Assembly: GCA_026390815.1 (NCBI GenBank)
Contig: JAPLFH010000018.1
Location: 1 to 64,000 of the forward strand
Reading direction: 5' to 3'
Origin: Ignavibacteriales bacterium
Lineage (GTDB): Bacteria > Bacteroidota > Ignavibacteria > Ignavibacteriales > SURF-24
Length of the DNA stretch: 64,000 nucleotides
Both the position numbers and the translations under genes were made by a program. The first letter of the stretch is position 1, and each line of letters starts with the position of its first letter. The notes beneath the pieces are model-generated. The model had not been told where the DNA came from. It ran no database searches and saw only the letters and a list, made by a program, of their open reading frames with translations. This document shows, piece by piece, positions 852 through 62,276 of the stretch.

Positions 852-3827
852 ATGAAAAAAAAACCAATTCCTAAACGATCTCCGATCATTAAAAAGAATG
901 TTACTCATGAAATATCGTACATAGATAATTCTTTTTATGTAGTTGGCATTGGAGCATCTGCAGGTGGTTTAGATGCACTTGAAAGATTTTTTGGAAGTAT
1001 GACTGAGAATTCTGGTATGGCTTTTATCGTCGTATCGCATTTAGATCCCAATCATATAAGCATTATGCCGGAGCTAATTCAAAAATCTACCAAGATGAAG
1101 TTATTTCAAGCTGAAGACGGAATGGAAGTTAAACCTAACCATGTATATGTTACACCGGCTAATCGGGATTTAGCAATACTCCACGGAACAATCCAATTAA
1201 TTGAACCACTTGAGGCGCATGGGTTCAGGCTTCCAATTGATTTTTTCTTCAAATCCCTTTCAGCAGATTTAGGTGAAAAAGCTATTTGTATTATTCTTTC
1301 TGGAATGGCTTCTGATGGCACAACAGGATTGAAAGCAGTAAAAAGTGAATTAGGAATGGTGATGGTACAGGATCCTAAATCAGCAAAATTTGATGGGATG
1401 CCAACCAGTGCAATTAAAACCGGATTAGTAGATTACATTCTTCCACCCGAAGAAATGCCTGAACAATTATTAAAATATACTTCCCAAAAAGTTAAAGGTG
1501 TTTTATTAGATAAAGCAATTACGGATGGTAAAATCCCTGATTCAATTCAAAAAATATTCATACTTCTCAGAACCCATACTGGTCACGATTTTTCCCATTA
1601 TAAACAGAACACAATCTTTCGGCGAGTTGAACGAAGAATGAATATTTCTCAGTTGGATGGTCTTCCAGATTATATTCGTTTGCTTCAGGAAAATCCTTCT
1701 GAAATAGAAAACTTGTTTAAGGAATTTTTAATTGGTGTAACAAATTTTTTCAGAGATCCCGAATCATTCGAGAAATTGAAAAAGATATTATTAGAGTTAG
1801 TAAAAAGTAAACCGGAACACGGTCAAATAAGAATTTGGGTGCCAGGTTGTTCTACCGGTGAAGAAGCATACTCGGTTGCAATTTTATTAAAAGAATGCAT
1901 GAATGAAGCAAAGAAAAATTTTAGCGTGCAAATATTTGCCACAGATATTGATAGTAACGCAATTGAAAAAGCGCGTATAGGTTCATTTACAGGAATTGAA
2001 TCCGATGTTGGCAAAGAACGTTTGAACCATTTCTTTACTTCCGAAGGAAATCTTTTTCATATTCGAAAAGAAATTAGAGAAATGTTAGTCTTTGCACCTC
2101 AAAGCATTATTAAAGATCCTCCATTTACCAAACTGGACCTAATCACCTGCCGAAATCTTTTAATTTATTTTAATACCGAATTACAGAAAAAAATTGTTCC
2201 TTTGTTTCATTATAGTCTTTTACCTAAGGGAGTACTTTTTCTTGGTTCATCGGAAACAATTGGCGAGTTTGTTGATTTGTTTTCAATGTTAGATAGTAAA
2301 TGGAAAATTTACAAAAGAAGGGATTCAATTTTTTCGGTGCAACCTTTTATAGAATTCCCGGTACAACGGTCAATTGGAAAAACTAATGAAACTATTATGA
2401 TAAAAAATGAAGTAAAAAATATTACCCAATTAGCAGAAAAAGTAATCCTGCAAAGTTACTCTCCAGATTGTGTAATCATAACCGGAAATGGAGATATAGT
2501 TTATATCCATGGCAGAACAGGTAAATACTTAGAGCTAATTCATGGCGAAGCGAAAATGAACATCTTTGAAATGGCACGCCCGGGATTAAAGCAAGAACTT
2601 CCAACTTTAATTAGAAGAGTTTTATTAAGTAAGAAATCTGTAACCGCCGAAGGAGTAAGAATAAAATCTAATGGTAATAGCCAATTGGTAAATCTTATTA
2701 TTAAACCAATCAAAGAACCGGCAGCAATGATCGGTTCCTTATTGATAATATTTGAAGAAATAATACCACAAAAAAAAGTATCGCCTTCAAAAAAAATCCA
2801 TTATGAACAGAAAGCAGAAAAAAATATTAAAGAACTTGAACACGAATTAAAAGCTGCTAAAGAAAATTTAAGGGCAACCATTGAAGAATTAGAAACTTCA
2901 AATGAAGAACTTAAATCTACCAATGAAGAAATGCAATCTACCAATGAGGAAATGCAAAGTTCAAATGAAGAATTGGAAACTTCTAAAGAAGAATTACAAT
3001 CATTAAATGAAGAATTGATTACAGTAAACACCGAGATGCAAAATAAGAATGATGCTTTATCAATTATAAATAATGATATGAAAAACCTGTTGGATAGCAT
3101 TGATATACCAACCATCTTTTTAGACAATAATCTGCTTATTAAAAGATTTACATTTCATGCAACAAAGGTTGTTAACCTTATTTCTTCGGATATTGGAAGA
3201 CCAATAAATCATATAGCTACAAATCTTAGGTATGAAAAATTTATTGAGGATGCAAAGGAAGTTTTAAGAACCTTGGTTTTTAAAGAAATTGAGTTACAAA
3301 CAAATGATGGTACCTGGTATCAAATGAGAATTTTACCGTACCGGACTTTAAGCAACATAATTGATGGTGTTGTTATTACGTTTTCAAATATCAACAAAAT
3401 AAAAATTGCTTCTAGTGAGATAACTAAGTTAAACCAGGAAATCCAAATTGCGCGGGATTTTTCAAACAATATTGTTGAGACGCTTAGGGATTCACTTCTT
3501 ATTCTTGATGATAAATTAAAAGTACTTTCTGCTAACAGGGCTTTTTATAAAGTGTTTGATACCATTAGCGAAAAAACTGTTGGTAAATTTATTTATGAAC
3601 TTGAAGATAATAATTGGGATATACCAAAACTGAGGAAATTGCTTCAGGAAATAATTCCTAAAGCCACGTTTTTTGAAGACTTTGAAGTTGAATACAATTT
3701 TAAAAAAGGTGGTAGAAAAAAACTATTATTAAATGCCCGCGAGGTATTTCAGGGAGATAAAGAATCTAAACTCATCCTGCTTGCAATCCAGAGCCAGGAC
3801 ATAAAAGAGAAAGGTGGCAAAAAATGA
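852..3827 (+). CDS. CheB/CheR fusion protein with S-helix and two PAS domains
   Basis: This 991-residue protein fuses a chemotaxis methylesterase to a methyltransferase. The CheB part (about 28-215) has the catalytic triad S36 (GASAGG), H63 and D155. The CheR part (about 225-490) has the SAM-binding motif PGCSTGEEAYS around 332-338. Residues about 650-730 form a heptad-repeated signalling helix rich in NEEL/NEEM units. A PAS10-like domain (about 735-850) and a second PAS (about 865-985) follow. The second PAS is of the same subtype as the seven repeats in the kinase at 45680. There is no kinase domain, but the next gene overlaps the stop by 4 bases and encodes one, so the two probably signal together. 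No MCP or chemotaxis genes lie nearby, so a non-chemotactic sensory role is likely. Confidence 0.93.
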   Translation: MKKKPIPKRSPIIKKNVTHEISYIDNSFYVVGIGASAGGLDALERFFGSMTENSGMAFIVVSHLDPNHISIMPELIQKSTKMKLFQAEDGMEVKPNHVYVTPANRDLAILHGTIQLIEPLEAHGFRLPIDFFFKSLSADLGEKAICIILSGMASDGTTGLKAVKSELGMVMVQDPKSAKFDGMPTSAIKTGLVDYILPPEEMPEQLLKYTSQKVKGVLLDKAITDGKIPDSIQKIFILLRTHTGHDFSHYKQNTIFRRVERRMNISQLDGLPDYIRLLQENPSEIENLFKEFLIGVTNFFRDPESFEKLKKILLELVKSKPEHGQIRIWVPGCSTGEEAYSVAILLKECMNEAKKNFSVQIFATDIDSNAIEKARIGSFTGIESDVGKERLNHFFTSEGNLFHIRKEIREMLVFAPQSIIKDPPFTKLDLITCRNLLIYFNTELQKKIVPLFHYSLLPKGVLFLGSSETIGEFVDLFSMLDSKWKIYKRRDSIFSVQPFIEFPVQRSIGKTNETIMIKNEVKNITQLAEKVILQSYSPDCVIITGNGDIVYIHGRTGKYLELIHGEAKMNIFEMARPGLKQELPTLIRRVLLSKKSVTAEGVRIKSNGNSQLVNLIIKPIKEPAAMIGSLLIIFEEIIPQKKVSPSKKIHYEQKAEKNIKELEHELKAAKENLRATIEELETSNEELKSTNEEMQSTNEEMQSSNEELETSKEELQSLNEELITVNTEMQNKNDALSIINNDMKNLLDSIDIPTIFLDNNLLIKRFTFHATKVVNLISSDIGRPINHIATNLRYEKFIEDAKEVLRTLVFKEIELQTNDGTWYQMRILPYRTLSNIIDGVVITFSNINKIKIASSEITKLNQEIQIARDFSNNIVETLRDSLLILDDKLKVLSANRAFYKVFDTISEKTVGKFIYELEDNNWDIPKLRKLLQEIIPKATFFEDFEVEYNFKKGGRKKLLLNAREVFQGDKESKLILLAIQSQDIKEKGGKK

Positions 3828-5110
3828 AACGTTCCAAAAAACAACCAGAATTAACTAATATTGAACAAGTGATAAATAAAATTGAACTAAAAAACAAAAA
3901 AACGGCGGTTGAAAATATTGAAGACGTTCAAAAACTTGTGCATTTAGTTTACGTTCATCAAATTGAATTGGAACACCAAAACCAGGAACTTAGAATTACG
4001 CAGGAAGAACTGGAAGTATCCAGGCATAAATATGTAAACCTTTTTGATTTTTCACCAATACCTTACTTTACTTTGAACATTGATGGAATAATTAAGGAAG
4101 TAAATTTAAGCGCCGGTAAAATGTTTGGCGTTGAAAGAAAAAAATTAGTTGGTAATCGTTTTATTTCTTACGTCCAGTTAAATGAACGGGATATTTTTAA
4201 TTCCTTTATTAAAACTGTTTTTAATTCACCAGAAAAACACTCCAGTCAAATAAAATTGGTAAACAAAGGAAAACAAATATTGCATGTTTTAATGGAAGGA
4301 TTAAAGTTTGATGAATCTTCGGAAACAGATCAAAAATGCCAGGTTGCTATAATAGATTTGACTGAATACAAAAAGATTGAAGATTCGTTAAATAAAACCA
4401 ACGAAGAACTTAAAACAATTAATGATACCAAAGATAAATTCTTCTCAATCATTGCACACGATTTAAGGAGCCCTTTACAATCTTTGCTGAGTTCTTCCGA
4501 ATTGTTAGCAAAAGAAATTGAAAGCTTATCTGGAGAAGAAATACAATTTTTTAGCAAAGGATTAAATGAAAATTTGAATAACCTTTATACACTTCTGGAA
4601 AATTTACTCAATTGGTCAATGATGCAAAGAGATAAGATAGAGTATAACCCGGTAAATCTTAACCTCAATGGAATAGTAAATAATGTAATTGGAATTTCAA
4701 ATCCGACCGCTTTGAAGAAAAATATTTTTATATCTAACAGTGTTGAACCCGGAATATTTGTTTATGCGGATTCTAATATGCTTCGCTCAGTAGTTCAGAA
4801 CCTTATTACAAATGCAGTTAAATTTACCCGGGCTTTAGGAAGAATAATTATTACATCTGTTAAGAATGGCGATTTTATAGAAGTTTCTATCCAGGACAAC
4901 GGAATAGGAATCGAATCGGAAAAAATTGCTAAACTCTTCAACTTTAACACACTAAATACATCTAGCGGCACAGCCAGTGAGAGCGGAACCGGACTTGGTT
5001 TATTACTTAGTAAAGAATTTATTGAAAGAAACGGTGGTAAAATTTGGGTGGAAAGTGAATTGGGAAAAGGATCAAAGTTTAATTTCACTTTACGCAAAGC
5101 AATTTCATGA
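3824..5110 (+). CDS. PAS-domain histidine kinase
   Basis: A 428-residue cytosolic sensor kinase. The N-terminus (1-65) is a predicted coiled coil, followed by one PAS domain (about 68-185). The HisKA dimerisation domain carries the phospho-accepting H212 (IIAHDLRSP). The HATPase domain has the N box (NLITNAVKF), G1 box (DNGIGIE) and G2 box (GTGLGL). The ATG overlaps the stop of the CheB/CheR/PAS gene (ATGA-type overlap), so translation is probably coupled. The NarL-type regulator 130 bases downstream is the likely partner. No membrane segment is seen, so the signal must be cytosolic or relayed by the fusion protein. Confidence 0.92.
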   Translation: MKRSKKQPELTNIEQVINKIELKNKKTAVENIEDVQKLVHLVYVHQIELEHQNQELRITQEELEVSRHKYVNLFDFSPIPYFTLNIDGIIKEVNLSAGKMFGVERKKLVGNRFISYVQLNERDIFNSFIKTVFNSPEKHSSQIKLVNKGKQILHVLMEGLKFDESSETDQKCQVAIIDLTEYKKIEDSLNKTNEELKTINDTKDKFFSIIAHDLRSPLQSLLSSSELLAKEIESLSGEEIQFFSKGLNENLNNLYTLLENLLNWSMMQRDKIEYNPVNLNLNGIVNNVIGISNPTALKKNIFISNSVEPGIFVYADSNMLRSVVQNLITNAVKFTRALGRIIITSVKNGDFIEVSIQDNGIGIESEKIAKLFNFNTLNTSSGTASESGTGLGLLLSKEFIERNGGKIWVESELGKGSKFNFTLRKAIS

Positions 5111-5241: not shown

Positions 5242-5934
5242 ATGAAAAAAATTAAGATATTGCTTATTGAAGATAATAAGCTTTTGCGCGATGGAATAAC
5301 ATCAGTGCTAAAAAAACAACCAGATATGAAAGTTGTTGCCACAGATGGTATTGCTGAAAATATTTTGGAGATAATAGGCAAACTAAAATTAAACATTGTG
5401 CTTCTCGATCTTGGTTTACGAAGTAATAATAGTTTGCAAGTTGTAAAATTAATTAAAAAGCATTTTCAGGAAACCAAAATAATAGGGATGGATCTTATAC
5501 CACTTCAATCAGATGTTTTTGACTTTGTACAAGCAGGAGTTTCAGGATTTATACTTAAAGATGCAAATGTTAATGAATTTTTAAAAACTATCCGATCAGT
5601 TTATCAGGATGCACAGGTTTTACCACCAAACTTAACCGGTTCACTTTTTAGTCAGATAGTAAAACATGCAATTAATGAATTCAAACCTTCCATAATTGCG
5701 GAAGCGGTTAGCATGACAAAACGCGAGCGGCAAGTGATCGAATTGGTTGCGGATGGTTTTGCCAATAAAGAGATTGCACAAAAACTTCATCTCTCTACCT
5801 TCACTGTAAAAAGTCATGTTCATAACATACTGGAAAAATTGTCGCTTCATACACGTGTGCAGGTTGCAAAATATGCTCATATTAATGAAACATATAAAAC
5901 TGCAATTGATTCAACTTCATTAATAAGCGAGTAA
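5242..5934 (+). CDS. NarL/LuxR-family response regulator (paralogue 1)
   Basis: 230 residues. The receiver domain (1-125) has acidic residues E10/D11, phospho-acceptor D56 in VLLDLGLRS and the conserved K near 109 (FILKDA). A LuxR-type helix-turn-helix follows (about 165-225), with TKRERQVIELVADGFANKE and the recognition helix STFTVKSHVHNILEKL. It is strongly similar to the regulator at 11874 and less so to the one at 44834. All three share the same unusual C-terminal tail (KTAIDSTSLISE type). It sits directly after the kinase and is presumably phosphorylated by it. Confidence 0.93.
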   Translation: MKKIKILLIEDNKLLRDGITSVLKKQPDMKVVATDGIAENILEIIGKLKLNIVLLDLGLRSNNSLQVVKLIKKHFQETKIIGMDLIPLQSDVFDFVQAGVSGFILKDANVNEFLKTIRSVYQDAQVLPPNLTGSLFSQIVKHAINEFKPSIIAEAVSMTKRERQVIELVADGFANKEIAQKLHLSTFTVKSHVHNILEKLSLHTRVQVAKYAHINETYKTAIDSTSLISE

Positions 5935-5950
5935 TTGCCAGCAGCATTCT

Positions 5951-5992
5951 GCCCAAATGATGTAGTTCTTTTTTCATCCCATTGCCTTATTG
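5951..5992 (+). promoter_or_regulatory. Conserved 45-bp hairpin element, copy 1
   Basis: The centre TAGTTCTTTTTT differs from consensus at one base. The arms CAAATGATG and CATCCCATTG both depart from consensus in a way that keeps a T-A pair in the outer stem. TTATT follows 17 bases after GTTCT. The start codon of the Lys-rich protein lies 115 bases downstream. The element begins 17 bases after the preceding regulator's stop. Confidence 0.75.
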
Positions 5993-6106
5993 TGTACTTC
6001 AATTATTCTACGTATAATGTTCAAGAAGAATTTAATTATAATGATGCAATTAAAAATTATTTTATTCTTCATTAGATCTTAATCTTAAATTATAAGGGAA
6101 AAAATC

Positions 6107-6232: not shown

Positions 6233-6463
6233 TGTCCGGTAAGTCGTCAGTAATTTTTTTAAAATCATTTTTTAGTAATGTTTTTTTTTAGATTCTTCAA
6301 CATAATCTTAAAAATAAACTGCACAAAAAAAATCAACTCCATTTCATCTTTGAAAAACCTGGTGTATTTGCAGGAAAGTAATCCTTGCGTATCTGCATAA
6401 CCATTGCAAAACTGAAATAGCTGCCGCTTCTTTAGTAAGCACATAAATTTCTACGGATTTTAT

Positions 6464-6507
6464 ATCCAAAGGATGTAGTTCCTTTTTCATCCTTTTGGGT
6501 GATTGTT
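6464..6507 (+). promoter_or_regulatory. Conserved 45-bp hairpin element, copy 2
   Basis: The arms CCAAAGGATG and CATCCTTTTGG pair along their whole length apart from one bulged T, the most stable form in the window. The centre TAGTTCCTTTTT is identical to consensus. TGATT follows at the constant 17-base distance. The next start is the truncated regulator at 6625, 118 bases on. The rest of 6233-6463 shows nothing recognisable. Confidence 0.8.
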
Positions 6508-6624
6508 GTACTTTTAATTTTTTGTAATATTTGACGAAATAAAAAATTAATACTTTATAGTTTTGATTAAGAAATACAATCAAGCGACAGAGAATTCTGG
6601 AGACTTATTTGGATAGGCAAAAAT

Positions 6625-11873: not shown

Positions 11874-12566
11874 TTGAAAAAAATCCAGATTTTACTTATC
11901 GAAGATAATCGCCTTCTACGCGAAGGTATTGCAGCAATGCTCAGAAAACAATCTGACATGCAAGTTGTTGCCAAAGTTGGTAATGGTGAAAACTTATTGC
12001 TGATGACTGCCAAACTCAAACCAAATATAATACTCCTTGATCTCGGTTTACGAAGTCAAAACAGTTTAAATATTGTAAAATTAATTAAGAAAGATTTTAA
12101 TGAAACCAAAATAATAGTGATGGATCTTATTCCTTTACAAGCAGATGTTTTTGAATTTGTACAAGCTGGAGTTTCAGGATTTATTCTTAAGGATGCAAAC
12201 ACGGCTGAATTTTTTAAAACTATTCGATCAGTTTATCAGGGCGCCCAGGTATTACCACCTCATTTAACTGGATCACTTTTCAGTCAGATAGTTGAACACG
12301 CAATAATTGAATCTAAACCATCTTTAATTAAAGAATCGTTTCGAATGACAAAACGTGAACGCCAGGTGATCGAACTGATTTCAGATGGTTTTACTAACAA
12401 AGAGATCGCACATAAACTTCATTTATCAACTTACACGGTAAAAAGCCACGTTCATAATATTCTTGAAAAATTATCGCTTCATACACGTGTCCAGGTTGCA
12501 AATTATGCTCATTTTTCTGATTCATATAAAACTGCAATTGATACCACTTCTTTAATCACCGAATAA
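11874..12566 (+). CDS. NarL/LuxR-family response regulator (paralogue 2), TTG start
   Basis: 230 residues, close paralogue of the regulator at 5242 with the same receiver D56 (ILLDLGLRS) and LuxR helix-turn-helix (TKRERQVIELISDGFTNKE). No ATG is possible: the nearby ATG at 11863 runs into TGA after four codons. The TTG at 11874 aligns exactly with the ATG of the paralogues. GGAA lies 6-9 bases upstream. The duplicate follows a second kinase, suggesting that kinase-plus-regulator units were copied and specialised. Confidence 0.92.
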   Translation: MKKIQILLIEDNRLLREGIAAMLRKQSDMQVVAKVGNGENLLLMTAKLKPNIILLDLGLRSQNSLNIVKLIKKDFNETKIIVMDLIPLQADVFEFVQAGVSGFILKDANTAEFFKTIRSVYQGAQVLPPHLTGSLFSQIVEHAIIESKPSLIKESFRMTKRERQVIELISDGFTNKEIAHKLHLSTYTVKSHVHNILEKLSLHTRVQVANYAHFSDSYKTAIDTTSLITE

Positions 12567-12580: not shown

Positions 12581-12626
12581 TCACTCAAAAGGTGTAGTTC
12601 CTTTTTCATCCTTTGGACTGATTGAT
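12581..12626 (+). promoter_or_regulatory. Conserved 45-bp hairpin element, copy 3
   Basis: The arms CAAAAGGTG and CATCCTTTG keep pairing through a G-T wobble at the GATG-to-GGTG change. The centre TAGTTCCTTTTT is invariant. TGATT lies 17 bases after GTTCC. It begins 15 bases after the regulator stop and ends 70 bases before the lmo0937-type gene. Confidence 0.8.
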
Positions 12627-12695
12627 TTACTATATTTCTAAACATAGCTTAGTATAGTATTAATCACTAAAATTAAAACAGGAAGGATACTTACT

Positions 12696-12845
12696 ATGTT
12701 ATATACCATTGCTGTCATCTTAATAATATTGTGGCTACTCGGTTTCCTAACTTCATACACTATGGGTGGTGTTATCCACATTCTGCTGGTAATTGCAATT
12801 ATTATGGTCTTAGTTAGAATTATAAGCGGGCGCCGCGCGCTCTAA
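12696..12845 (+). CDS. lmo0937/DUF5670-type small membrane protein
   Basis: 49 residues starting MLYTIAVILIILWLLGFL and ending GRRAL. It has two short hydrophobic helices separated by a small polar turn (SYTMGG) and a basic C-terminus. Length and sequence fit the lmo0937 family membrane proteins, whose function is unknown but which recur among stress-induced genes. A strong AGGAAGG lies 8-14 bases upstream of the ATG. A full second copy sits at 15229 and a frameshifted third at 33275. Confidence 0.8.
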   Translation: MLYTIAVILIILWLLGFLTSYTMGGVIHILLVIAIIMVLVRIISGRRAL

Positions 12846-13602: not shown

Positions 13603-13649
13603 CTCACCCAAAAGGTTTAGTTCCTTTTTCATCCCTTCGCTCGATTGAT
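13603..13649 (+). promoter_or_regulatory. Conserved 45-bp hairpin element, copy 4
   Basis: The centre TAGTTCCTTTTT is identical to consensus. The left arm (CAAAAGGTT) pairs less well with CATCCCTTCG than other copies do. CGATTGA follows at 17 bases. It lies 99 bases before the ATG chosen for the DUF6600 gene (66 before the alternative ATG). The rest of 13388-13602 holds only a chance 23-codon frame. Confidence 0.75.
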
Positions 13650-13747
13650 GCGCTCTAATTATGTGCATATATTTCAAACAAAAATGATGTGAATCATCTA
13701 CACGAATTGAATTAATGAAAAGCATTTTAAATAAAATAGGAAAAATT

Positions 13748-15121
13748 ATGAATCAACTAATTAAAACTTTTATACTGGTGATTTCATTAAGTATAGTGCT
13801 TGCAATATTTCCAAAACAAATATTAGCACAGCATAATTATCAGGTGTTTTATAATGATTTAAGCCCCTATGGTCAGTGGATTGAAAACCCTGATTATGGA
13901 TATGTATGGATCCCAGCAGTAGGTCCAGACTTTTCACCATATTCATCAAATGGTTACTGGGTAATGACTGATTATGGTTGGACGTGGGTATCAGACTATG
14001 ATTGGGGATGGGCAACTTTTCATTATGGGCGTTGGGATTATAATGATTACTATGGTTGGTATTGGGTTCCAGACAATGAATGGGGTCCTTCTTGGGTTAC
14101 ATGGCGAAGATCAGAAGGTTATTATGGATGGACACCGATGAGACCGGGTATTTCTATAAGCATTTCTTTTGGTGGTAATTATGAAGTACCTAATGATCGA
14201 TGGATATTTGTAAGAGACAGGGATATTGAAAGACATGACATTAGTCGAAATTATATAGACCGGAGCAACAATATAACAATCATCAATAATTCAACTGTAA
14301 TTAATAAAACTTACTATGATAATAAAAGGCAAACAACGTACGTCTCTGGACCAGACAGAATGGATGTTCAAAAAATTATTGGTAGAACAATCAAACCAAT
14401 ACAAGTTCAAGAAAGAAATAAACCGGGACAGAATTTAAACAACGACCGATTACAAATATATAGACCTCAAGTACAGAAAAATAAACCCGGGCAGAAAATA
14501 GTCCCATCGGAAATAACAAATATAAAAGATGTAAAACGGATATCGGAAAGAGAAACCAAAAAACAACCACGGGATTTACAACAAGTGGAAAGCAAAACGG
14601 TAAAAGAACAACAACCCGTAGTAAATCCGGTAAATAAAATAAATAAGAAAGAGATTCCTTCTCAGAAGCGTAATGTAAATTCACCAAAGAATAATGTGAA
14701 TAAAGAACAACAACCTGTCGTTAATCCGACTAATAGAATCAATACAAAAGAGATACCTTCTCAGAAGCGAAATATAAATCCACCCAAGAACAATGTGAAC
14801 AAGGAACAACAACCTGTTGTTAATCCGACTAATAGAATCAATACAAAAGAAATTCCTTCTCAAAGGCGGAATACAACTCCACCAAATAATAGTATTAATA
14901 AAAATAATCCAACTCAACAACAAAAGCTGGATTCTCCAAGGAAAGAAAACAAGACTGTTAAACCATTACCACCTCAGAAAATAAATACACCAAAAAACAA
15001 TAATGTTTCGGATAAACCGCAGAAAGAAAGAACCATAACTCCGCAAAAGAACAAGAGTGTGGATCAACCATCCAAATCAAATCCGAATGAAAATAAAAAG
15101 GAAAATAGGAAACCAAAATGA
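13748..15121 (+). CDS. Secreted DUF6600 (YXWGXW-type) protein with Pro/Asn/Lys-rich repeats
   Basis: About 457 residues from ATG 13748, which gives a clean signal peptide ending near ILAQ. An ATG 33 bases upstream would add a basic N-terminus. The domain (about 20-150) is dense in Trp, Tyr and Gly (YGWTWVSDYDWGWATFHYG), typical of DUF6600. The C-terminal half is low complexity and basic, with about three copies of a 33-residue unit containing KEQQPVVNP, INTKEIPSQ and PPKNN. The 99-bp DNA repeats could vary in number. It is probably periplasmic or surface-associated. Copy 4 of the conserved element precedes it. Confidence 0.8.
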   Translation: MNQLIKTFILVISLSIVLAIFPKQILAQHNYQVFYNDLSPYGQWIENPDYGYVWIPAVGPDFSPYSSNGYWVMTDYGWTWVSDYDWGWATFHYGRWDYNDYYGWYWVPDNEWGPSWVTWRRSEGYYGWTPMRPGISISISFGGNYEVPNDRWIFVRDRDIERHDISRNYIDRSNNITIINNSTVINKTYYDNKRQTTYVSGPDRMDVQKIIGRTIKPIQVQERNKPGQNLNNDRLQIYRPQVQKNKPGQKIVPSEITNIKDVKRISERETKKQPRDLQQVESKTVKEQQPVVNPVNKINKKEIPSQKRNVNSPKNNVNKEQQPVVNPTNRINTKEIPSQKRNINPPKNNVNKEQQPVVNPTNRINTKEIPSQRRNTTPPNNSINKNNPTQQQKLDSPRKENKTVKPLPPQKINTPKNNNVSDKPQKERTITPQKNKSVDQPSKSNPNENKKENRKPK

Positions 15122-17683: not shown

Positions 17684-17730
17684 CTAACATAAAGATGTAG
17701 TTCCTTTTTCATCCTTATGGACGATTGTTG
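17684..17730 (+). promoter_or_regulatory. Conserved 45-bp hairpin element, copy 5 (covarying)
   Basis: The arms CATAAAGATG and CATCCTTATG differ from consensus on both sides, yet pair in nine of ten positions. This is the clearest compensating change in the set. The centre TAGTTCCTTTTT is invariant and CGATTG follows at 17 bases. The next start is at 17914, 183 bases on. The remainder of 17581-17913 shows nothing else. Confidence 0.82.
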
Positions 17731-17913
17731 CGAGCTTCATTCCTTATTACATTATCCATCAAAATTATATCCAATAAAGAGATTAGGGAAAGTAGTTTGA
17801 TTATTATTTTTGCGTATATCTAATTGTTCATTCACTTAACTCGTCTTCTTTATCAATCCAAAGGAAAAAAATTAAATCTCAAAAAGAAATTTATTTAGGA
17901 AACAATAACCGAT

Positions 17914-18588
17914 ATGAAAACCAATTCAATTTATATAATTCCAATACTTGTTTTATTTGCTGTTTTTAGTTTCGCATCAAAAGCTAAAGAGAGAATCATC
18001 ATAATTCCAAATTCATACTTTCCAGTTAATAATAGTATAACATTGGTTTATAAATCATCATTTGGTGAAAGTATTACAAAATACTATCAGGATGGAGATT
18101 TTACCATCTGTTCGAGTGAAGGCGACAAATTTAAGTATAGACAGACTTTACTAATAAAAGAAGAGGGTGTTTATACAAAAGAAACCTATCAGTATTTAAA
18201 AATATTTTTATTTATAAACAAAGAAGTAACATTCACGTATGGAAAACCTTTATTGCGATTTCCACTTCCTTTAACACCAGGAATGATGTGGCAATGGGAA
18301 GGAGATGAATATTCAGATGGTGGTAAGAATAATGTTAAAGTTACTGGAAAAGCATTTGATAAGGAATTTGTTAAAACAAAAGCCGGGCGCTTTGAAGCGA
18401 TAAAATTAGAATCTGTTGTTGAAGGTTCATCTAATTCCAAAAATAGAGTAACCGAATGGTATGCAGAAGGTATAGGATTAATAAAAGCCAAAATAATAAT
18501 TGAAGGTGGCGGACTAATGGGATTTTTAAGAGACATTCTAGGATATGGAACCATTGAATTTGAATTGCAAGAAATTAGGAAACAATAA
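17914..18588 (+). CDS. Exported protein, possibly TapB/DUF3108-like
   Basis: 224 residues with an N-terminal signal segment (about 5-22, cleavage near ASKA). The remainder is beta-rich. The stretch FPLPLTPGMMWQWEG and the later VTEWYAEGIGLIKAK resemble TapB/DUF3108-type periplasmic proteins, which carry a similar WYxxGVGxVK segment. That similarity is weak. Function is unknown. It follows copy 5 of the conserved element and is followed by copy 6. Confidence 0.65.
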   Translation: MKTNSIYIIPILVLFAVFSFASKAKERIIIIPNSYFPVNNSITLVYKSSFGESITKYYQDGDFTICSSEGDKFKYRQTLLIKEEGVYTKETYQYLKIFLFINKEVTFTYGKPLLRFPLPLTPGMMWQWEGDEYSDGGKNNVKVTGKAFDKEFVKTKAGRFEAIKLESVVEGSSNSKNRVTEWYAEGIGLIKAKIIIEGGGLMGFLRDILGYGTIEFELQEIRKQ

Positions 18589-18627: not shown

Positions 18628-18673
18628 CTCACCCAAAAGATGTAGTTCCTTTTTCATCCCTTTGTCCGATTTA
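18628..18673 (+). promoter_or_regulatory. Conserved 45-bp hairpin element, copy 6
   Basis: Consensus form: arms CAAAAGATG and CATCCCTTTG, centre TAGTTCCTTTTT, preceded by CTCAC. CGATTTAC follows at 17 bases. It is 228 bases before the OmpA-family start at 18901, with the degenerate copy between them. Confidence 0.82.
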
Positions 18674-18767
18674 CACAATCACAACATCTACATAACTTTT
18701 TAATGGTAAATAACTAAAACTAATTTAATTAAAGGGATCAAATTATTTTATGCAAAATCCAACACTT

Positions 18768-18900: not shown

Positions 18901-20292
18901 ATGAAAATTTTAACAAAAATAATTATTGTAAGTTTCTTTTTTACATTTTCAATTGTTCAAGTGTTTAGTACAATAAATGCACAAGAGACTAAATTCTGCT
19001 ACCAGGCTTGGAGTACTGGTTCGATTGAGGGATTGAATTATAATTCTTCAACTCTCGGACGGCAACAGTTACCTCAAAATATTACCACGGATTTCAGGCA
19101 GTCTGTTGAAGAAAAAATTACTGAGACTCCTCCCGAAAAGAAAGTTTCCGTTGTTATGCCCGCTAACAATACTATAGCAACAAAAAGTATTAAAGGTTAT
19201 TTCCCGATACATCCCTATGTGTTTTTTGATGAAGGAAATAAGGAAATTCCTCTAAGATATATTATGCTTTCAAAGGCTGCTGCACAGGATTTCAAAGAAT
19301 CTGACCTTGGAAATTTTATTGTAGGCGATTTAACCGTAAAAGAAACTAATATCAATCAAGTAATGATAGCCTACTATGATGTTATAAATGTTTATGCCGA
19401 TAGAATGAGAAAGAATCCGAATGAACTGCTTACATTACGAGGCTCTGACCCGGTAGAAAAAGATGGAGAAACTTATGCGAATAATGTAAAGAGTTATTTA
19501 GTAAATAATTTTGGGATTGATGCCAAAAGAATAAAAACTATAGTGGAACCACCGCGGAAACCGTCCGGAAGTATTTCTACAGATTCGACATTTATAGCTC
19601 TACTTGACGACGAAAACCGTAGAGTTGTCTTTATTTTTAGTAATCAGGACATGTTGAGACCGATATCTTATACTATCAGGGATGAATCTTTAATGGATAA
19701 TGATATGGTTTTCTCCATAAGTAAGGATGTTAAGTTCAAAAGCTGGGATATTTCAATCACAGGTGAAAATAATACAATGAATTTTGGTCCCTTTAAAAAT
19801 AATAAGCAAAGGATCAATCCGGCACCGCTTATGAGAGGACTTGCTGAGGGCAAATTTAATGCAAAAGTTGTGATATCAATGCAAGATGGAAAACAAGTCA
19901 CTGAAGACATCGATTTCAAGCTGTTGAAGGAAAGAGAATTAAGGAATGCTTCCAGATATCTTATGATTTTCGATTACAATAAATCCGAATCAGTTTTGTC
20001 TTATGAAACAAAAATTAGAAAAGAAATTACTCCAGGATTGAATGTCGGTAATACTGTAATAATTCACGGTCATACAGACATAATTGGAAATGAAGAAGAA
20101 AATCAAAAGCTTTCGCAGGAAAGAGCAGATCAAGTAAAAGGTATTATAGAGGATGAACTTAGTAAAGAAAACAAAAAAGTTAATGTACAGGCTATCGGAA
20201 TCGGTCAAACTAATATGCAGTATACGTTTTCAAATAGATATCCTGAAGGAAGAATGTATAATCGGAATGTATTTGTCGAGATCATTAAATAA
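18901..20292 (+). CDS. OmpA-family outer-membrane protein
   Basis: 463 residues with a signal peptide (cleavage near TINAQ). The middle region has no recognised domain. The C-terminal 115 residues form an OmpA peptidoglycan-binding domain with IIHGHTDIIGNEEENQKLSQERA and the terminal NRNVFVEI strand. The AAAGGAGTTATGAAATG leader gives a clear start. The leader is shared with the gene at 58599 although the coding sequences differ outside the OmpA domain, suggesting replacement of the coding part after duplication. Confidence 0.88.
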   Translation: MKILTKIIIVSFFFTFSIVQVFSTINAQETKFCYQAWSTGSIEGLNYNSSTLGRQQLPQNITTDFRQSVEEKITETPPEKKVSVVMPANNTIATKSIKGYFPIHPYVFFDEGNKEIPLRYIMLSKAAAQDFKESDLGNFIVGDLTVKETNINQVMIAYYDVINVYADRMRKNPNELLTLRGSDPVEKDGETYANNVKSYLVNNFGIDAKRIKTIVEPPRKPSGSISTDSTFIALLDDENRRVVFIFSNQDMLRPISYTIRDESLMDNDMVFSISKDVKFKSWDISITGENNTMNFGPFKNNKQRINPAPLMRGLAEGKFNAKVVISMQDGKQVTEDIDFKLLKERELRNASRYLMIFDYNKSESVLSYETKIRKEITPGLNVGNTVIIHGHTDIIGNEEENQKLSQERADQVKGIIEDELSKENKKVNVQAIGIGQTNMQYTFSNRYPEGRMYNRNVFVEIIK

Positions 20293-21613: not shown

Positions 21614-21660
21614 CTCACCCAAAGGATGTAGTTCCTTTTTCATCCTTTTGTACGATTGAA
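21614..21660 (+). promoter_or_regulatory. Conserved 45-bp hairpin element, copy 7
   Basis: Arms CAAAGGATG and CATCCTTTTG pair with a continuous 8-bp GGATG/AAA stem. The centre TAGTTCCTTTTT is invariant and CGATTGA follows at 17 bases. It ends 89 bases before the CsbD start. Confidence 0.82.
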
Positions 21661-21748
21661 CAATCCTTATTTCCTCCATATCATAATATTGTAATTAAGA
21701 AATTATTACACGAAATATTTATCAATTTAATTTTAAAGGAATTATAAA

Positions 21749-21934
21749 ATGAATTCAATGATAATTAAAGGAAATTGGAAAGAAGTTGCAGGTAAACTTA
21801 AACAGCAATTCGCAAACCTAACCGATGATGATTTACTTTACCAGGAAGGGAAGGAAGAAGAACTATTAGGAAAATTGCAGAATAAACTTGGAAAGACTAA
21901 GGAAGAACTACACAAAATAATTTCTAAATTTTAA
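21749..21934 (+). CDS. CsbD-family stress protein
   Basis: 61 residues, IIKGNWKEVAGKLKQQFANL at the N-terminus followed by YQEGKEEELLGKLQNKLGKTKEE, the two helix-like segments of CsbD/YjbJ proteins. Members are small soluble proteins strongly induced under general or osmotic stress, molecular role unknown. AAAGGAATTATAAA precedes the ATG. It probably heads an operon with the lipoprotein at 22033 and the DUF3943 gene. Confidence 0.9.
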   Translation: MNSMIIKGNWKEVAGKLKQQFANLTDDDLLYQEGKEEELLGKLQNKLGKTKEELHKIISKF

Positions 21935-30994: not shown

Positions 30995-31053
30995 ATATTT
31001 TGTATGTTGAACTCATGATTTTTACACAAATATCATGATTGAAAGTTGATAAC

Positions 31054-31665
31054 ATGGTACTTACTATTTTTCTTAAAGGAATCTTGATTGGTTTTGCTAT
31101 GGCAATCCCTATTGGACCCATAGGAATTATGTGTATCCGCAAGACACTAACAGAAGGACGGGTACGTGGACTAATTATTGGTCTTGGTGCTGCTACTGCC
31201 GATTTACTTTACGGTTGTGTTGCGGCATTTGGGCTTACGGTTATTTCAACAGCACTTATTAGTCAACGAATCTGGATCCGATTAGTAGGAGGAGCGCTTC
31301 TACTTTTTCTTGGATTAAGAACATTTCGGACTCTGCCTGCTGATCCTAAAATACCTATTAAGAGTAATGGAATTTTAAGATCCTATCTAACCACTGTTTT
31401 TCTAACTCTTACAAATCCTATGACCATCTTTGCTTTTATTGCTGTGTTTGCTGCACTTGGTTTAGGAAATGGACTCGGATATTTTTCTGCAGCGGCTCTT
31501 GTAGTAGGCGTATTTATAGGTTCAGGTTTATGGTTTGTATTACTTAGTTCCAGTGTTACACTTTTTAGAAATAAGCTGGATTTGATTGGACTACGATGGG
31601 TAAACAGAATTGCAGGTGTGCTGATAATTATCTCCGGTTTAATTGCCATTGTTAGTTTGTTATAA
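31054..31665 (+). CDS. LysE-family exporter (copy 1)
   Basis: About 203 residues and six membrane helices. The N-terminal signature FLKGILIGFAMAIPIGPIG and the TNPMTIFAF segment are typical of LysE/RhtB amino-acid exporters. ATG 31054 aligns with the start of the copy at 40821; an upstream in-frame TTG at 31039 would add five residues. The two genes are almost identical in DNA over about 600 bases. Substrate unknown. Confidence 0.9.
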   Translation: MVLTIFLKGILIGFAMAIPIGPIGIMCIRKTLTEGRVRGLIIGLGAATADLLYGCVAAFGLTVISTALISQRIWIRLVGGALLLFLGLRTFRTLPADPKIPIKSNGILRSYLTTVFLTLTNPMTIFAFIAVFAALGLGNGLGYFSAAALVVGVFIGSGLWFVLLSSSVTLFRNKLDLIGLRWVNRIAGVLIIISGLIAIVSLL

Positions 31666-33064: not shown

Positions 33065-33163
33065 AATAACTTAATTCCACTTTTCAATTTACTATTTCGA
33101 ATACTCCTACATATTCTTTTGTTAACAATCGACCTTCTCTGTAATCAGATATCGGTATGGTTC

Positions 33164-33207
33164 GACTAAAAGATGTAGTTCCTTTTTCATCCCTTTGACC
33201 GATTGAA
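33164..33207 (+). promoter_or_regulatory. Conserved 45-bp hairpin element, copy 8
   Basis: Arms CTAAAAGATG and CATCCCTTTG, invariant centre TAGTTCCTTTTT, CGATTGA at 17 bases. It lies 68 bases before the frameshifted lmo0937-type gene and is the nearest such element to the YtxH gene. Confidence 0.8.
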
Positions 33208-33274
33208 TTACTATAATTCTCTTCATAGCTTCATAAAGAATTTTAATAAAATTTTAACGAAAAGGAGACTTACT

Positions 33275-33422
33275 ATGTTATACACTATCGCGGTTGTTCT
33301 AATAGTTGTGGCTTCTAGGGCTACTCACCACCTATACTTTGGGCGGTGTTATTCACGTTCTGCTTGTAATTGCAGTTATAATGATCTTAGTAAACGTCAT
33401 TCGTGGCAGGCGTGCGCTTTGA
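33275..33422 (+). pseudogene. lmo0937/DUF5670-type gene with a 2-base frameshift
   Basis: The first ten codons read MLYTIAVVLI. The next bases (ATAGTTGTGG) lack two bases relative to the intact copies (pattern ATTGTATTGTGG). The expected protein then resumes in another frame as LWLLGLLTTYTLGGVIHV and VNVIRGRRAL, ending at TGA 33420-33422. Total length is 148 instead of 150 bases. The AAAAGGAGAC leader is intact. Either a recent inactivation or a sequence error. Confidence 0.75.
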
Positions 33423-33471
33423 ATGCATGTTTGTACATTACAGGAAAATAAAAAACAAATGGAGGATCATT

Positions 33472-33747
33472 ATGCAAAATGAAGGAAACGGAATGGGTAA
33501 AGGATTATTTATCGGTATGTTAACCGGCGTAGCAGTCGGATCAATAATCGCGTTTTTTTACGCTCCCAAATCCGGTAAAGAATTACGAGAAGATATTAAA
33601 ACCAAATCACAAGATTTTATTGAAGATGCTGATCAATATGTAGTGAACGCAAAAGATAAAGCCTTGCATCTCTTAAATGATGGTAAAAAAAAATCAAAAA
33701 GATGGTTGCAGAGACTAAAGAAAAAGTTGACACTCTTTCTTAAGTGA
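33472..33747 (+). CDS. YtxH-domain protein, C-terminus probably frameshifted
   Basis: From ATG 33472 (GGAGG 9 bases upstream) the frame encodes 91 residues. A Gly-rich membrane helix (GLFIGMLTGVAVGSIIAFFY) is followed by APKSGKELREDIKTK, the YtxH signature. After an A9 tract at 33684-33692 the coding signal moves to another frame (KKMVAETKEKVDTLS) and then to a third (EAERFLNEAKDKAGN up to TGA at 33856). The intact ancestor was thus about 125 residues. YtxH proteins are general-stress membrane proteins. It lies downstream of copy 8 of the conserved element. Confidence 0.78.
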   Translation: MQNEGNGMGKGLFIGMLTGVAVGSIIAFFYAPKSGKELREDIKTKSQDFIEDADQYVVNAKDKALHLLNDGKKKSKRWLQRLKKKLTLFLK

Positions 33748-36803: not shown

Positions 36804-36849
36804 ATTACCAAAAGATGTAGTTCCTTTTTCATCCTTTAGAACGATTGAT
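36804..36849 (+). promoter_or_regulatory. Conserved 45-bp hairpin element, copy 9
   Basis: Arms CAAAAGATG and CATCCTTTAG, invariant centre, CGATTGA at 17 bases. The next well-supported start is the FN3-like lipoprotein at 37052, 203 bases away. The rest of 36617-37051 contains only a 26-codon frame at 36960 that is probably chance. Confidence 0.8.
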
Positions 36850-37051
36850 TCGCTTTAGATCCGTATGTAATTTACAAATGGATTTTAGTAGAAATTCCAT
36901 TAATAAGTCATTTACAGTTGGCATTTTTTTTTAGACTCAACAAATAATTCAGAAAATTTATGGCGAGTAAAATTTTAATTATATCAACAAACCGCCGTTC
37001 ACTTTATGTGACAAGTCTATTTTATAAATTTAAATATTAGGAGCAAATACT

Positions 37052-37897
37052 ATGAATAGATTATTAATACTTGCATTTGTTTTAATTTTTATTTTTAACT
37101 CTTGTAGTAATAACAGCGATAGTCCTGTAGTTGCTGATACTATTCCCTCCGTACCTACATTATTAAACCCGGCTGATGCAACAACGCATGTAGCAATTCC
37201 GACTGAATTTGGATGGAAAACAAGCACCGGAGCAGTAAGTTACACATTACAGGTGTCGACTAACAGTTCATTTACAAGTTTCATATATAATCAAAGTGGA
37301 TTAACAAGTTTAACCCAACAAGTAAGCGGTCTGAATCCGTTATCAATTTATTATTGGAGAGTAAGTGCAACAAATAAAGCGGGTACATCTGACTGGTCAA
37401 CAGTATGGAGCTTTACTGCAACAGGTCCCTCGCCAATGGTGCCGGTTTTATCTAACCCGATAGATGATGCAATAACCTATTCAGCACCGTTAACGTTAAG
37501 TTGGCTCGCAACCAGCGGAGCGGAAAGTTATACATTACAGGTCTCTGTTAATAGTTCATTTACAAGTTTTGTATATAATCAAAGCGGATTAACTTCTTCG
37601 ACTCAACAGGTAACGGGACTGACTGCTTCAACATACTATTGGCGTGTAAATGCAGCAGGCAATAACGGAACATCCGGATGGTCAACTGTATGGAGTGTTA
37701 CAACAGCGGTACCAATTGCACCGGATTTATCATCTCCGGTAAATGGAGCAACAAATATATCTGTTTCCCCGATGTTAAACTGGAGCGCAAGCGGTGGAGC
37801 TACGAGTTATACATTGCAGGTATCTGTAAATAGTTCTTTTACAATTTTTTTATATAATCAAAGCGGATTAACATCTTTGATTCAACAAGTGACGTGA
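37052..37897 (+). CDS. FN3-like repeat lipoprotein truncated by a nonsense codon
   Basis: The readable protein is 281 residues with a lipobox (FNSC, Cys18) and three fibronectin-III-like repeats of about 90 residues. Each repeat contains SYTLQVSxNSSFT, NQSGLTS and YYWRV. The third is cut at TGA 37895-37897, where repeats 1 and 2 have GGT and GGA. Reading through the TGA gives 31 more residues completing the repeat (LTAPNLYYWRVSSTNGYGTS, ending SFSVL) before TAA 37991-37993. A single G-to-T change explains it. It is probably a surface-exposed adhesin-like lipoprotein. Confidence 0.82.
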   Translation: MNRLLILAFVLIFIFNSCSNNSDSPVVADTIPSVPTLLNPADATTHVAIPTEFGWKTSTGAVSYTLQVSTNSSFTSFIYNQSGLTSLTQQVSGLNPLSIYYWRVSATNKAGTSDWSTVWSFTATGPSPMVPVLSNPIDDAITYSAPLTLSWLATSGAESYTLQVSVNSSFTSFVYNQSGLTSSTQQVTGLTASTYYWRVNAAGNNGTSGWSTVWSVTTAVPIAPDLSSPVNGATNISVSPMLNWSASGGATSYTLQVSVNSSFTIFLYNQSGLTSLIQQVT

Positions 37898-40699: not shown

Positions 40700-40820
40700 C
40701 TCTGTAATCAGGAGCATAATGATCGTCCAACGTAAACGTGAAAGTGATAAATGAAAAATGAAGCTTTAACACTTCACCTTAAAGAAGGTGAAAAAAGATG
40801 TTCTACTGAAAGATTATAAT

Positions 40821-41432
40821 ATGGAGTTTACTTTTTTTCTCAAAGGAATCTTAATTGGTTTTGCTATGGCAATCCCTATTGGACCCATAGGAATTATGTG
40901 TATCCGCAAGACACTAACAGAAGGACGGGTACGTGGACTAATTATTGGTCTTGGTGCTGCTACTGCCGATTTACTTTACGGTTGTGTTGCAGCATTTGGG
41001 CTTACGGTTATTTCGACAGCACTTATTAGTCAACGAATCTGGATCCGATTAGTAGGAGGAGCGCTTCTACTTTTTCTTGGATTAAGAACATTTCGGACTT
41101 TGCCAGTTGATCCTAAAATACTTATTAAGAGTAATGGAATTTTAAGATCCTATCTAACCACGGTTTTTCTAACTCTTACAAATCCAATGACCATCTTTGC
41201 TTTTATTGCTGCGTTTGCTGCACTTGGTTTAGGAAATGGACTCGGATATTTTTCTGCAGCGGCTCTTGTAGTAGGCGTATTTATAGGTTCAGGTTTATGG
41301 TTTGTATTACTTAGTTCCAGTGTTACACTTTTTAGAAATAAGCTGGACTTAATGGGACTGCGATGGGTAAACAGAATCGCCGGTGTGCTGATAATAATCT
41401 CTGGTATTATTGCAATAATAAGTTTGTTATAA
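40821..41432 (+). CDS. LysE-family exporter (copy 2)
   Basis: 203 residues from ATG 40821, differing from the gene at 31054 in only a few residues (MEFTFFLKG start, V for A and L for P near residue 100, A for V at FIAAFAAL, M for I near the end, IIAIIS tail). DNA identity is very high from the FLKG codons almost to the stop. Flanks differ. The TNPMTIFAF and GPIGIMCIRKT segments of the family are intact. Confidence 0.9.
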   Translation: MEFTFFLKGILIGFAMAIPIGPIGIMCIRKTLTEGRVRGLIIGLGAATADLLYGCVAAFGLTVISTALISQRIWIRLVGGALLLFLGLRTFRTLPVDPKILIKSNGILRSYLTTVFLTLTNPMTIFAFIAAFAALGLGNGLGYFSAAALVVGVFIGSGLWFVLLSSSVTLFRNKLDLMGLRWVNRIAGVLIIISGIIAIISLL

Positions 41433-41703: not shown

Positions 41704-41750
41704 ACTCACCCTAAAGATGTAGTTCCTTTTTCATCCCTTTGCCTTATTTA
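41704..41750 (+). promoter_or_regulatory. Conserved 45-bp hairpin element, copy 10
   Basis: Arms CTAAAGATG and CATCCCTTTG, invariant centre TAGTTCCTTTTT, TTATTTAC at 17 bases. It lies 136 bases before the DUF3494 start. The rest of 41433-41703 holds no clear gene; a short frame at 41569 (MKIAIVKLLKLAFVYGAYVV) is unsupported. Confidence 0.8.
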
Positions 41751-41885
41751 CACCTACCTGATAACTATGTAAGTTACTTACACCTAAATATCAAAAACGA
41801 ATTTTTAAAGCGCAATTAAATCAAGAACAATTTAAAATATAATTATTCGAACACTTGCACTTACACGAACTATATGGAACTAATT

Positions 41886-44833: not shown

Positions 44834-45523
44834 ATGAAAAAAATCAGACTGCTACTCATCGAAGATAACCGTCTTTTGCGGAATGGAATCCTTACGATTC
44901 TTAAACTTCATAAGGATATAAGTGTAATTGCGGCATCCGGAGATGGAAAGAGTACTCTTGTAAAAATCAAGCAGCTAAAACCGAATGTGGTTCTTTTGGA
45001 TCTTGGATTACGAAGTCAAAATAGTTTACGTGTTGTAGAAATAGTGAAGAAAGATTTTCCGGAAGCAAAAATTATTGTTATGGACCTTGCGCCTGTACAG
45101 GCAGATATTTTACAGTATGTAAAAGCCGGTGCCAACGGCTTCATCCTTAAAGACGCATCGCTTAATGAATTTTTAATCACGATACGAACAGTAGTTGAAG
45201 GAGCAACTGTATTACCTCCTATCCTGGTTGATTCACTCTTTTCTCAAATTATTGATAATGCAGTAAGAGAAGGCAAATCCAAACTGAAAGAAGCAGTTCA
45301 GATGACAACGAGAGAACGGGAAGTAATTTTGCTTCTAGGCGAAGGTATGAGCAATAAGGAGATCGGTCAAAGAATACGCATATCCACTTATACCGTTAAA
45401 AGTCATATTCATAATATCATGGAGAAACTTGCATTACATACACGCCTGGAAATTGCAAACTATTCTTACTCAGATGAAACACTTAGAACAACTTCCAAGA
45501 GTATTTCGATGTTAAATAATTAG
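44834..45523 (+). CDS. NarL/LuxR-family response regulator (paralogue 3)
   Basis: 229 residues with the same layout as the regulators at 5242 and 11874: receiver with phospho-acceptor in VVLLDLGLRSQNS (D56), LuxR-type helix-turn-helix TTREREVILLLGEGMSNKEI, recognition helix STYTVKSHIHNIMEKLALHT. It is the most divergent of the three in both domains. It precedes the seven-PAS kinase by about 155 bases and is likely its output partner. Confidence 0.93.
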   Translation: MKKIRLLLIEDNRLLRNGILTILKLHKDISVIAASGDGKSTLVKIKQLKPNVVLLDLGLRSQNSLRVVEIVKKDFPEAKIIVMDLAPVQADILQYVKAGANGFILKDASLNEFLITIRTVVEGATVLPPILVDSLFSQIIDNAVREGKSKLKEAVQMTTREREVILLLGEGMSNKEIGQRIRISTYTVKSHIHNIMEKLALHTRLEIANYSYSDETLRTTSKSISMLNN

Positions 45524-53721: not shown

Positions 53722-54319
53722 GCAAAAAAAGTTAGCTGTTGTGGGGTTTTCAAAATTTGAAAATTTAAAATAGAGTTTGATAATTTTTTGTAAAGTTAGA
53801 AAGAATATCCTGTTCAATAATAAATTGGTAAAAAACCTAATAGAATTAGGGAAATGAATATTCGAAAATTAGAAACGTAAAATTATAGTTTAAAATATTT
53901 ACTCAACAATAATTCCTTTCATTAAATCCGATAACGTCAGGGATTGACTCATCCAAAGGATGTAGTCCTATTTTCATCCTTTTGCTCTATTGATATACCT
54001 TTTCACTATTCACAAATTATACTATTAAAAAATCCGATTGTTTTTAATTGAAAAAACGTCTGCAACGTATTGGGATTATTGTGGTTTTTGGAAACAGTGT
54101 GAATTTAGTTGTCAAAAGGCAGTAACCGAAAAAGAACATAATTCTTTTACACAATTAAAGGCGATGTTCATTACATAAAGGAGAGACTCAAGCCGCAAAC
54201 ACGCCTGTGGGAACCCACCACTATGTGGGCGGTTTCTAACTATAATAACAATGACAAGAATCTCAAAAACAACCTATTAGTATTTCGGTAGCTAACAAAT
54301 AATTTAATTAGGAGAACGC
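53722..54319. other. Intergenic region with element copy 11 and a small palindrome
   Basis: 598 bases. Besides the conserved element at 53948-53994, there is a GC-rich palindromic stretch near 54190-54240 (GTGGG/CCCAC pairs repeated twice) resembling the REP-like clusters. No gene was recognised. AGGAGAACGC is the leader of the next gene. Confidence 0.5.
53948..53994 (+). promoter_or_regulatory. Conserved 45-bp hairpin element, copy 11
   Basis: The arms CAAAGGATG and CATCCTTTTG pair perfectly over eight bases. The centre is TAGTCCTATTTT, the most diverged of all full copies (two changes), and CTATTGA follows at 17 bases. It is unusually far (326 bases) from the next start at 54320, so it may be inactive or serve an unseen short gene. 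Confidence 0.68.
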
Positions 54320-54646
54320 ATGAAAAACATATTTATCGGTATTCTTAGTATAGTATTCTTTGTTTTCATCAATGGTTGTTCCCGTAATACAGACCCTCAG
54401 GTCCGCATCCGGAACGAACAGTTGAACAAAGTCAAAGTGAATATACAGACATCAGGAAGCAACAAATTCAGCATTGACGATATCGAACCCGGGCAAACAA
54501 CGGAATATCAAACCGCTCCTGAAGGAAATATTACTGCGACTGCTGTTTTCCAGAATGAGTCGGTATCGTTCCTTGCCGCAAAGAATACTCATTACACAAT
54601 TGTCATTAGTACAGGCAAACCACCTTTACTTCGTATCGATCAATAA
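54320..54646 (+). CDS. Small lipoprotein of unknown function
   Basis: 108 residues with lipobox INGC (Cys20). The mature part (VRIRNEQLNKVKVNIQTSGS, PGQTTEYQTAPEGNITATAV) looks like one small beta sandwich, reminiscent of DUF4397-like lipoproteins, though this is weak. TAGGAGAACGC precedes the ATG. G+C is somewhat higher than in the neighbours. Confidence 0.72.
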   Translation: MKNIFIGILSIVFFVFINGCSRNTDPQVRIRNEQLNKVKVNIQTSGSNKFSIDDIEPGQTTEYQTAPEGNITATAVFQNESVSFLAAKNTHYTIVISTGKPPLLRIDQ

Positions 54647-54807: not shown

Positions 54808-54853
54808 ATCACCCAAAAGATGTAGTTCCTTTTTCATCCCCTTGCCCTATTTA
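54808..54853 (+). promoter_or_regulatory. Conserved 45-bp hairpin element, copy 12
   Basis: Arms CAAAAGATG and CATCCCCTTG (one extra C in the right arm weakens the outer stem), invariant centre, CTATTTAC at 17 bases. It ends 73 bases before the Ig-repeat adhesin start. The sequence after it (ACGTAACTTTTTAACAGTAAATAACG) parallels that after copy 6. Confidence 0.8.
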
Positions 54854-60610: not shown

Positions 60611-60657
60611 CTAACCCAAAAGATGTAGTTCCTTTTTCATTCCTTTGCTCTATTTAC
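60611..60657 (+). promoter_or_regulatory. Conserved 45-bp hairpin element, copy 13
   Basis: Arms CAAAAGATG and CATTCCTTTG (C-to-T opens one stem position), invariant centre TAGTTCCTTTTT, CTATTTAC at 17 bases. It ends about 100 bases before the DUF3494-T9SS gene. Confidence 0.8.
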
Positions 60658-62228: not shown

Positions 62229-62276
62229 ACTCACCCAAAAGATGTAGTTCCTTTTTCATCCCTTTGACCGATTGAA
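62229..62276 (+). promoter_or_regulatory. Conserved 45-bp hairpin element, copy 14
   Basis: The full consensus with the CTCACCC prefix: arms CAAAAGATG and CATCCCTTTG, centre TAGTTCCTTTTT, CGATTGA at 17 bases. It ends 64 bases before the small gene at 62340. Confidence 0.85.

Follow-up and report, generated by a model that had tools for sequence, protein, structure and literature searches.

Our analysis points to an element of about 40 bp that probably serves as a control site in double-stranded DNA and forms one unit with the sigma-70-type core promoter behind it. The proposed activator is a response regulator of the NarL/VraR/DevR type, here called RR-A, and the proposed targets are stress-type genes. 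The unit would consist, in order, of the element, TTGA (-35), a 17-bp spacer, TAnnnT (-10) and a purine start. RR-A, encoded at 5242-5934 and 11874-12566, would bind the element, presumably in dimeric or larger form against the -35 region, and once bound would bring RNA polymerase to these stress-type genes. It would act as an activator, not a repressor, with the adjacent PAS histidine kinase as its likely partner and general stress as the likely trigger.

The window, by which we mean the whole stretch of DNA that was analysed, comprises bases 1-64000 of the 72,571-bp contig C18 from a genome of 4.52 Mb. When up to 3 mismatches were allowed, the core GTAGTTCCTTTTTCATCC occurred 14 times in the window, always on the + strand, compared to an expectation of 0.14 and a maximum of 1 per shuffle in 100 shuffles. 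The first-pass annotation had singled out the sequence at 17684-17730 (copy 5). It is present there with the letters given, and the “loop” described for it, TAGTTCCTTTTT, is indeed almost without variation among the aligned copies. With a sequence-only profile (R1), 19 good copies and 1 weaker copy were found in the source genome: 15 on C18, 2 on C7, 2 on C9 and the weaker one on C32. Copy 5 matched this profile with 48 bits, and the top match was copy 14 (62231..62270).

Carriers of the exact motif were mostly Ignavibacteria, Ignavibacteriales or Melioribacter, while a few were labelled just Bacteroidetes, Bacteroidota or Bacteroidia. Across a phylum sample of 395 genomes, 16/16 element hits fell within the same class, Ignavibacteria. 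A weak 15-base match recurs within bases 57-84 of contigs C27, C33, C35, C38, C47 and C48 of genome G000; its nearly constant position close to the contig starts hints at a repeat that these contigs have in common where the assembly breaks. In the window, nested inverted repeats at 139-540 (arms 139-172/507-540, 211-237/455-481 and 235-259/429-453) flank a G+C-richer stretch before the first gene and are possibly a small dispersed element.

Conservation of the aligned copies ended at one edge of the element and continued past the other. The upstream flank held at most 0.09 bits per column across the 29 columns before the element edge; downstream, the conserved columns were A41 T42 T43 G44 A45, then T65, A66, T70 and a purine at 77. 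In this column scheme the element occupies columns 1-40, the -35 hexamer is columns 42-47 and the -10 begins at column 65, and the -35-type TTGA and -10-type TAnnnT are separated by a 17-base spacer. TAnnnT began at column 65 in 102/145 copies (70%), leaving about 30% without it at exactly that column, compared to roughly 2-4% at most other offsets. In two hold-out sets, neither of which had been used in discovering this position, the frequencies were 74% of 74 copies and 75% of 51 copies.

As read from the sequence, this downstream geometry is that of a main-sigma (sigma-70-type) promoter. It would place the element at about -76 to -37, which is where an activator site would sit, and transcription would start near column 77, some 37 bp past its downstream edge. 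The next gene was co-directional with the element in 143/148 cases, and the median distance from the predicted start to that gene was 97 bp.

For copy 5 (17684..17723, + strand, located by profile match), the aligned columns 42-47 give a -35 of TTGTTG (17725..17730) and column 65 gives a -10 of TACATT (17748..17753). The predicted start is near 17760, ahead of a + strand gene for a DUF3108-like protein of 224 aa (17914..18588, Pfam PF21347). Every other copy in the window is also on the + strand. Copy 1 (5949..5988) has the -35 TTGTGT (5990-5995) and the -10 TATAAT (6013-6018), copy 2 (6462..6501) has the -35 TTGTTG (6503-6508) with AATATT (6526-6531) at the -10 position, and copy 14 has the -35 TTGAAA (62272-62277) with GATAAT (62295-62300) at the -10 position. 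Copy 3 (12581..12620; -10 TAGCTT, 12645-12650) precedes a DUF5670 gene (12696-12845), copy 4 (13604..13643; TATATT, 13668-13673) a DUF6600 gene (13715-15121), copy 6 (18629..18668; TAACTT, 18693-18698) an OmpA-family gene (18901-20292) and copy 7 (21615..21654; TATCAT, 21679-21684) a CsbD gene (21749-21934). Copy 9 (36804..36843; TAATTT, 36868-36873) lies before the gene 37052-37897, and copies 10 (41706..41745; TAAGTT, 41770-41775) and 13 (60612..60651; TATCAT, 60676-60681) lie before ice-binding-like genes (41874-42974 and 60759-62111, respectively). Copy 11 (53949..53988), with CAAATT (54013-54018) at the -10 position, is before the gene 54320-54646, and copy 12 (54809..54848; TAACTT, 54873-54878) is before the gene 54927-58436. 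Copy 8 (33162..33201; TAGCTT, 33226-33231) precedes a broken-looking DUF5670-like frame and a YtxH gene (33403-33747). This frame (33275-33451) starts with MLYTIAV like the DUF5670 protein at 12696, then diverges and has no Pfam match; a frameshift in this copy or an error in sequencing is the probable cause.

It could be argued that the element is instead recognized by an alternative or ECF sigma factor, for example the product of the gene behind the C9 copy (L140:6676-7257), given that this gene is directly downstream of an element, as is the case for autoregulated sigma factors. We consider this extremely improbable. The core promoter already has main-sigma spacing, and relatives of the factor, the one ECF family covered by this test, were found in 14/21 element genomes compared to 27/38 other genomes (Fisher p 0.77). 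At the same locus (G000 contig C9, L140:5164-7257, - strand), the ECF gene is followed by L140:5164-6645, which resembles a family whose gene immediately follows an element in five other cases.

The copy 5 sequence had originally been interpreted as a hairpin whose arms change together and which is therefore itself under selection. This claim failed on both alignments to which it was put, including the larger one that the first-pass annotation had called for: the arms do not change together, and the element is very probably not a selected RNA hairpin. For the 19 copies of the source genome, the covariation score was matched by 132/500 shuffles and just 2 cells showed a two-sided change. Across the proposed 10-pair stem, 74.7% of the cells were paired as against 74.0% after shuffling, and RNAalifold predicted no pair with a two-sided change in these copies. 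The larger alignment of 145 gap-free copies from 21 Ignavibacteria genomes gave no significant stem pair, as every pair was at about the level of shuffled partner columns (lowest P 0.128). Among 74 hold-out copies of the same order, no pair had a P below 0.042. The 51 copies from other orders kept the inner pairs 13-28 and 14-27 in only 41% and 43% of cases, respectively, and one outer pair (columns 8-33) was paired above the shuffled level with P 0.002; this value is one among about 30 tests, and the sequences are related.

The individual copies that had been offered as examples fared unevenly. In copy 5, 9/10 positions of the arms CATAAAGATG/CATCCTTATG are pairable, as stated, and its double change (T-A for A-T) is an isolated case. 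In copy 1, for which a T-A replacing A-T had been described, the arms are unpaired in the common register (T-C, A-C, A-A). The GG/CC of copies 2, 7 and 11 is a one-sided change because the G faces a C that is found in 143/145 copies, and the G-T pairing of copy 3 is likewise one-sided. We note that double changes picked out by eye in a dozen related repeats can mimic covariation.

One possibility that would still give the hairpin a role is a structured RNA, either a leader or a protein-binding hairpin transcribed before each gene. The nearly invariant loop and the association of the outer pair 8-33 in the copies from other orders fit this idea, and some copies do fold well (z -2.96 for 6462, -1.90 for 53949 and -1.73 for 21615). 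Most of the 8 window copies folded no better than shuffles, however, with z ranging from +0.26 to -2.96 and -0.46 for copy 5 itself; a scan of the whole window at Rfam gathering scores gave no match, and the inner pairs are poorly kept outside the order. The position of the promoter argues against it as well. A start downstream of the element would leave the “hairpin” outside the transcript of the following gene, with read-through from the upstream gene possible, and a promoter at this fixed distance predicts transcripts that begin downstream of the stem, an outcome that the first-pass annotation had itself counted against its claim. With no covariation in either 19 or 145 copies, a structured RNA is unsupported and we regard it as very unlikely. 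An intrinsic terminator was also considered and rejected, as the T run is inside the loop and not after the stem.

The inverted-repeat operator that had been proposed beside the RNA was right in kind, in that the element is best read as an operator; the symmetry was not significant and covariation is not its support. The inverted symmetry of the profile (3.9, compared to a 95% point of 4.6) was inside the column-shuffle null, no 10- or 11-bp direct-repeat architecture exceeded that null, and clear dimer half-sites were not found in the profile. The operator reading is based instead on the promoter geometry, the orientation and a co-occurring regulator.

That regulator, RR-A, emerged as the most widely shared gene of the islands of elements; it is a response regulator whose helix-turn-helix is of the LuxR type. 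Its sequence relatives include VraR, NarL, DesR and DevR, and its best relative of solved structure is VraR (5hev, E 3.6e-26). In the window, a CheB-CheR-PAS fusion (852..3827, by Pfam) is upstream of a PAS histidine kinase (3824..5110; HisKA, HATPase_c), the candidate partner of RR-A on the grounds of adjacency. RR-A itself is a NarL/FixJ-type response regulator (5242..5934; Response_reg, GerE), the candidate cognate activator by co-occurrence. The window also holds a second RR-A gene (11874..12566) and a gene for a related response regulator, RR-B (44834..45523). All of these genes are on the + strand. The receiver domains of 5242-5934, 11874-12566 and 44834-45523 show no variation at the acceptor Asp56 or at Lys106. 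The same three receivers carry Asp84 (motif IIxMDL) at the switch position, where NarL has Ser and VraR has Thr, and this may reflect an unusual activation mode.

Within the order, the RR-A branch profile was found in 19/21 genomes with the element compared to 2/38 others, and within the class close RR-A relatives were found in 61/68 element genomes compared to 22/323 others; the Fisher tests of regulator against element treat genomes without correction for relatedness. These counts include 7 element genomes of the class without a close RR-A and 22 genomes with the regulator and no strong element. Presence and absence of RR-A and element agree within genera g3, g11, g13 and g28. Genus g15 disagrees: in its genome G017, elements occur in the absence of a close RR-A. 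Weak elements were found beside RR-A in G016, G019 and G307, genomes that had previously seemed element-free.

RR-A and the element are also close neighbors. The element starts 50 bp or less past the RR-A stop codon in 24/30 of the best RR-A loci, often at 14-15 bp and in other families too; some of these loci were chosen because RR-A or an element was there, while the distance itself was unselected. In the window, copy 1 is 14 bp past the stop of RR-A 5242-5934. On the basis of adjacency and co-occurrence, RR-A is the best candidate factor for the element and its predicted binder.

Another possibility is that the same DNA operator is used by another factor, either RR-B or a regulator outside the islands, and that RR-A is a co-inherited member. 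Indeed, RR-A may belong to the regulon without being its master. Binding of the element by RR-A is a prediction, and in several families the element lies between RR-A and RR-B. RR-B, whose recognition helix is very similar to that of RR-A, is often encoded directly downstream of an element. Moreover, a close RR-A is missing from G001 and G017, both of which have elements. On the other hand, RR-A is upstream of the element in most loci, at a stereotyped distance and not under element control, and G013, G043 and G053 have the element and RR-A without a second close relative. We therefore judge another factor to be unlikely and retain RR-A as the proposed activator.

Among 136 cases, the first genes behind the element were ice-binding-like (13), response regulators (9), CsbD (8), DUF6600 (6), DUF5670 (6), KaiC (5) and DUF3108-like (5); these picks followed a simple start-codon rule and may include errors. 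Other genes in the window island encode YtxH, ferritin-like, GrpE, cupin, PAP2, LysE, Nramp, PRC-barrel and OmpA-family proteins. From the roles of such families in other systems, we take the downstream genes to be a stress-type regulon. Two LysE-type transporter genes in the window (31039-31665 and 40788-41432), about 10 kb apart, show 96% identity across a compared stretch of 300 bp. Two genes contain tandem repeats: 7 copies of about 426 bp (45748-48606, gene 45680-49933) and 7 copies of 321 bp (55028-57387, gene 54927-58436).

All predicted genes in the window run in the direction of the element, as do nearly all island genes elsewhere. The promoter modules at 18629-18727, 41706-41804 and 54809-54907 are 76-86% alike over about 100 bp, a stretch that covers the element, the core promoter and the start of the leader, while the genes downstream are unrelated. 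This suggests that promoter modules of about 100 bp have been copied to new genes. It could be speculated that the element is a dispersed mobile repeat, or a site at which the cassettes of an array recombine, in keeping with these modules before different genes and with the single direction of the island copies. We give this reading almost no weight, as the conserved unit continues into a working-looking promoter at a fixed distance, single copies also occur outside islands, preceding genes, and viral contigs scanned for the exact core pattern gave 0 matches. The 145-copy consensus, read by eye, also lacks the GTTRRRY / RYYYAAC core of an integron attC site, which had been considered as a candidate in its own right.

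The proposed system has several relatives among known regulons. The DevR (DosR) regulon of mycobacteria likewise joins a NarL-subfamily response regulator related to RR-A to many dispersed promoters. At DevR promoters, the NarL-type sites lie close together, and the -35 element is overlapped by the site nearest to it (PMC3029386). In contrast, the site sequence here is different, a single 40-bp unit with hardly any variation adjoins the -35 without overlap, the promoters are clustered in one-directional islands and binding by RR-A is predicted. By analogy, the arrangement would work like DevR promoters in mechanism; as the site differs, we do not assign it as a DevR or VraR regulon. The envelope-stress regulators VraR, LiaR and DesR also have stress-type targets, and VraR is the best match to RR-A among relatives with a solved structure, but the gene set of the element is much larger and different, and RR-A has Asp in place of the switch Thr of VraR. 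Sigma-B general stress regulons overlap in the kinds of genes, which include CsbD, YtxH, DUF5670 (lmo0937-type) and ferritin-like proteins. Here, however, the core promoter is main-sigma-like and a response regulator, not a sigma factor, tracks the element.

A literature search, with subscription papers mostly outside it, returned nothing on the motif or on response regulator regulons in Ignavibacteria. In the parts consulted of a CRP/FNR study that included Ignavibacteria, a Bacteroides MalR matrix was used and no comparable site was named (PMC8510549). Most likely this is a system of an ordinary kind for which we found no description, the unusual feature being the clustering of its promoters.

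These data are consistent with a class-wide stress-type regulon of known kind that would be clustered in one-directional islands. More tentatively, it is possible that in much of Ignavibacteria the general stress response relies on a single NarL-type response regulator acting with main-sigma promoters, rather than on an alternative sigma factor, and that the promoters concerned have come together in one-directional islands of at least 60 kb, partly because modules of about 100 bp were copied to new genes. Ignavibacteria are known chiefly through metagenome assemblies, and for this class the analysis gives a testable regulatory code: a site, a promoter geometry and a candidate regulator.
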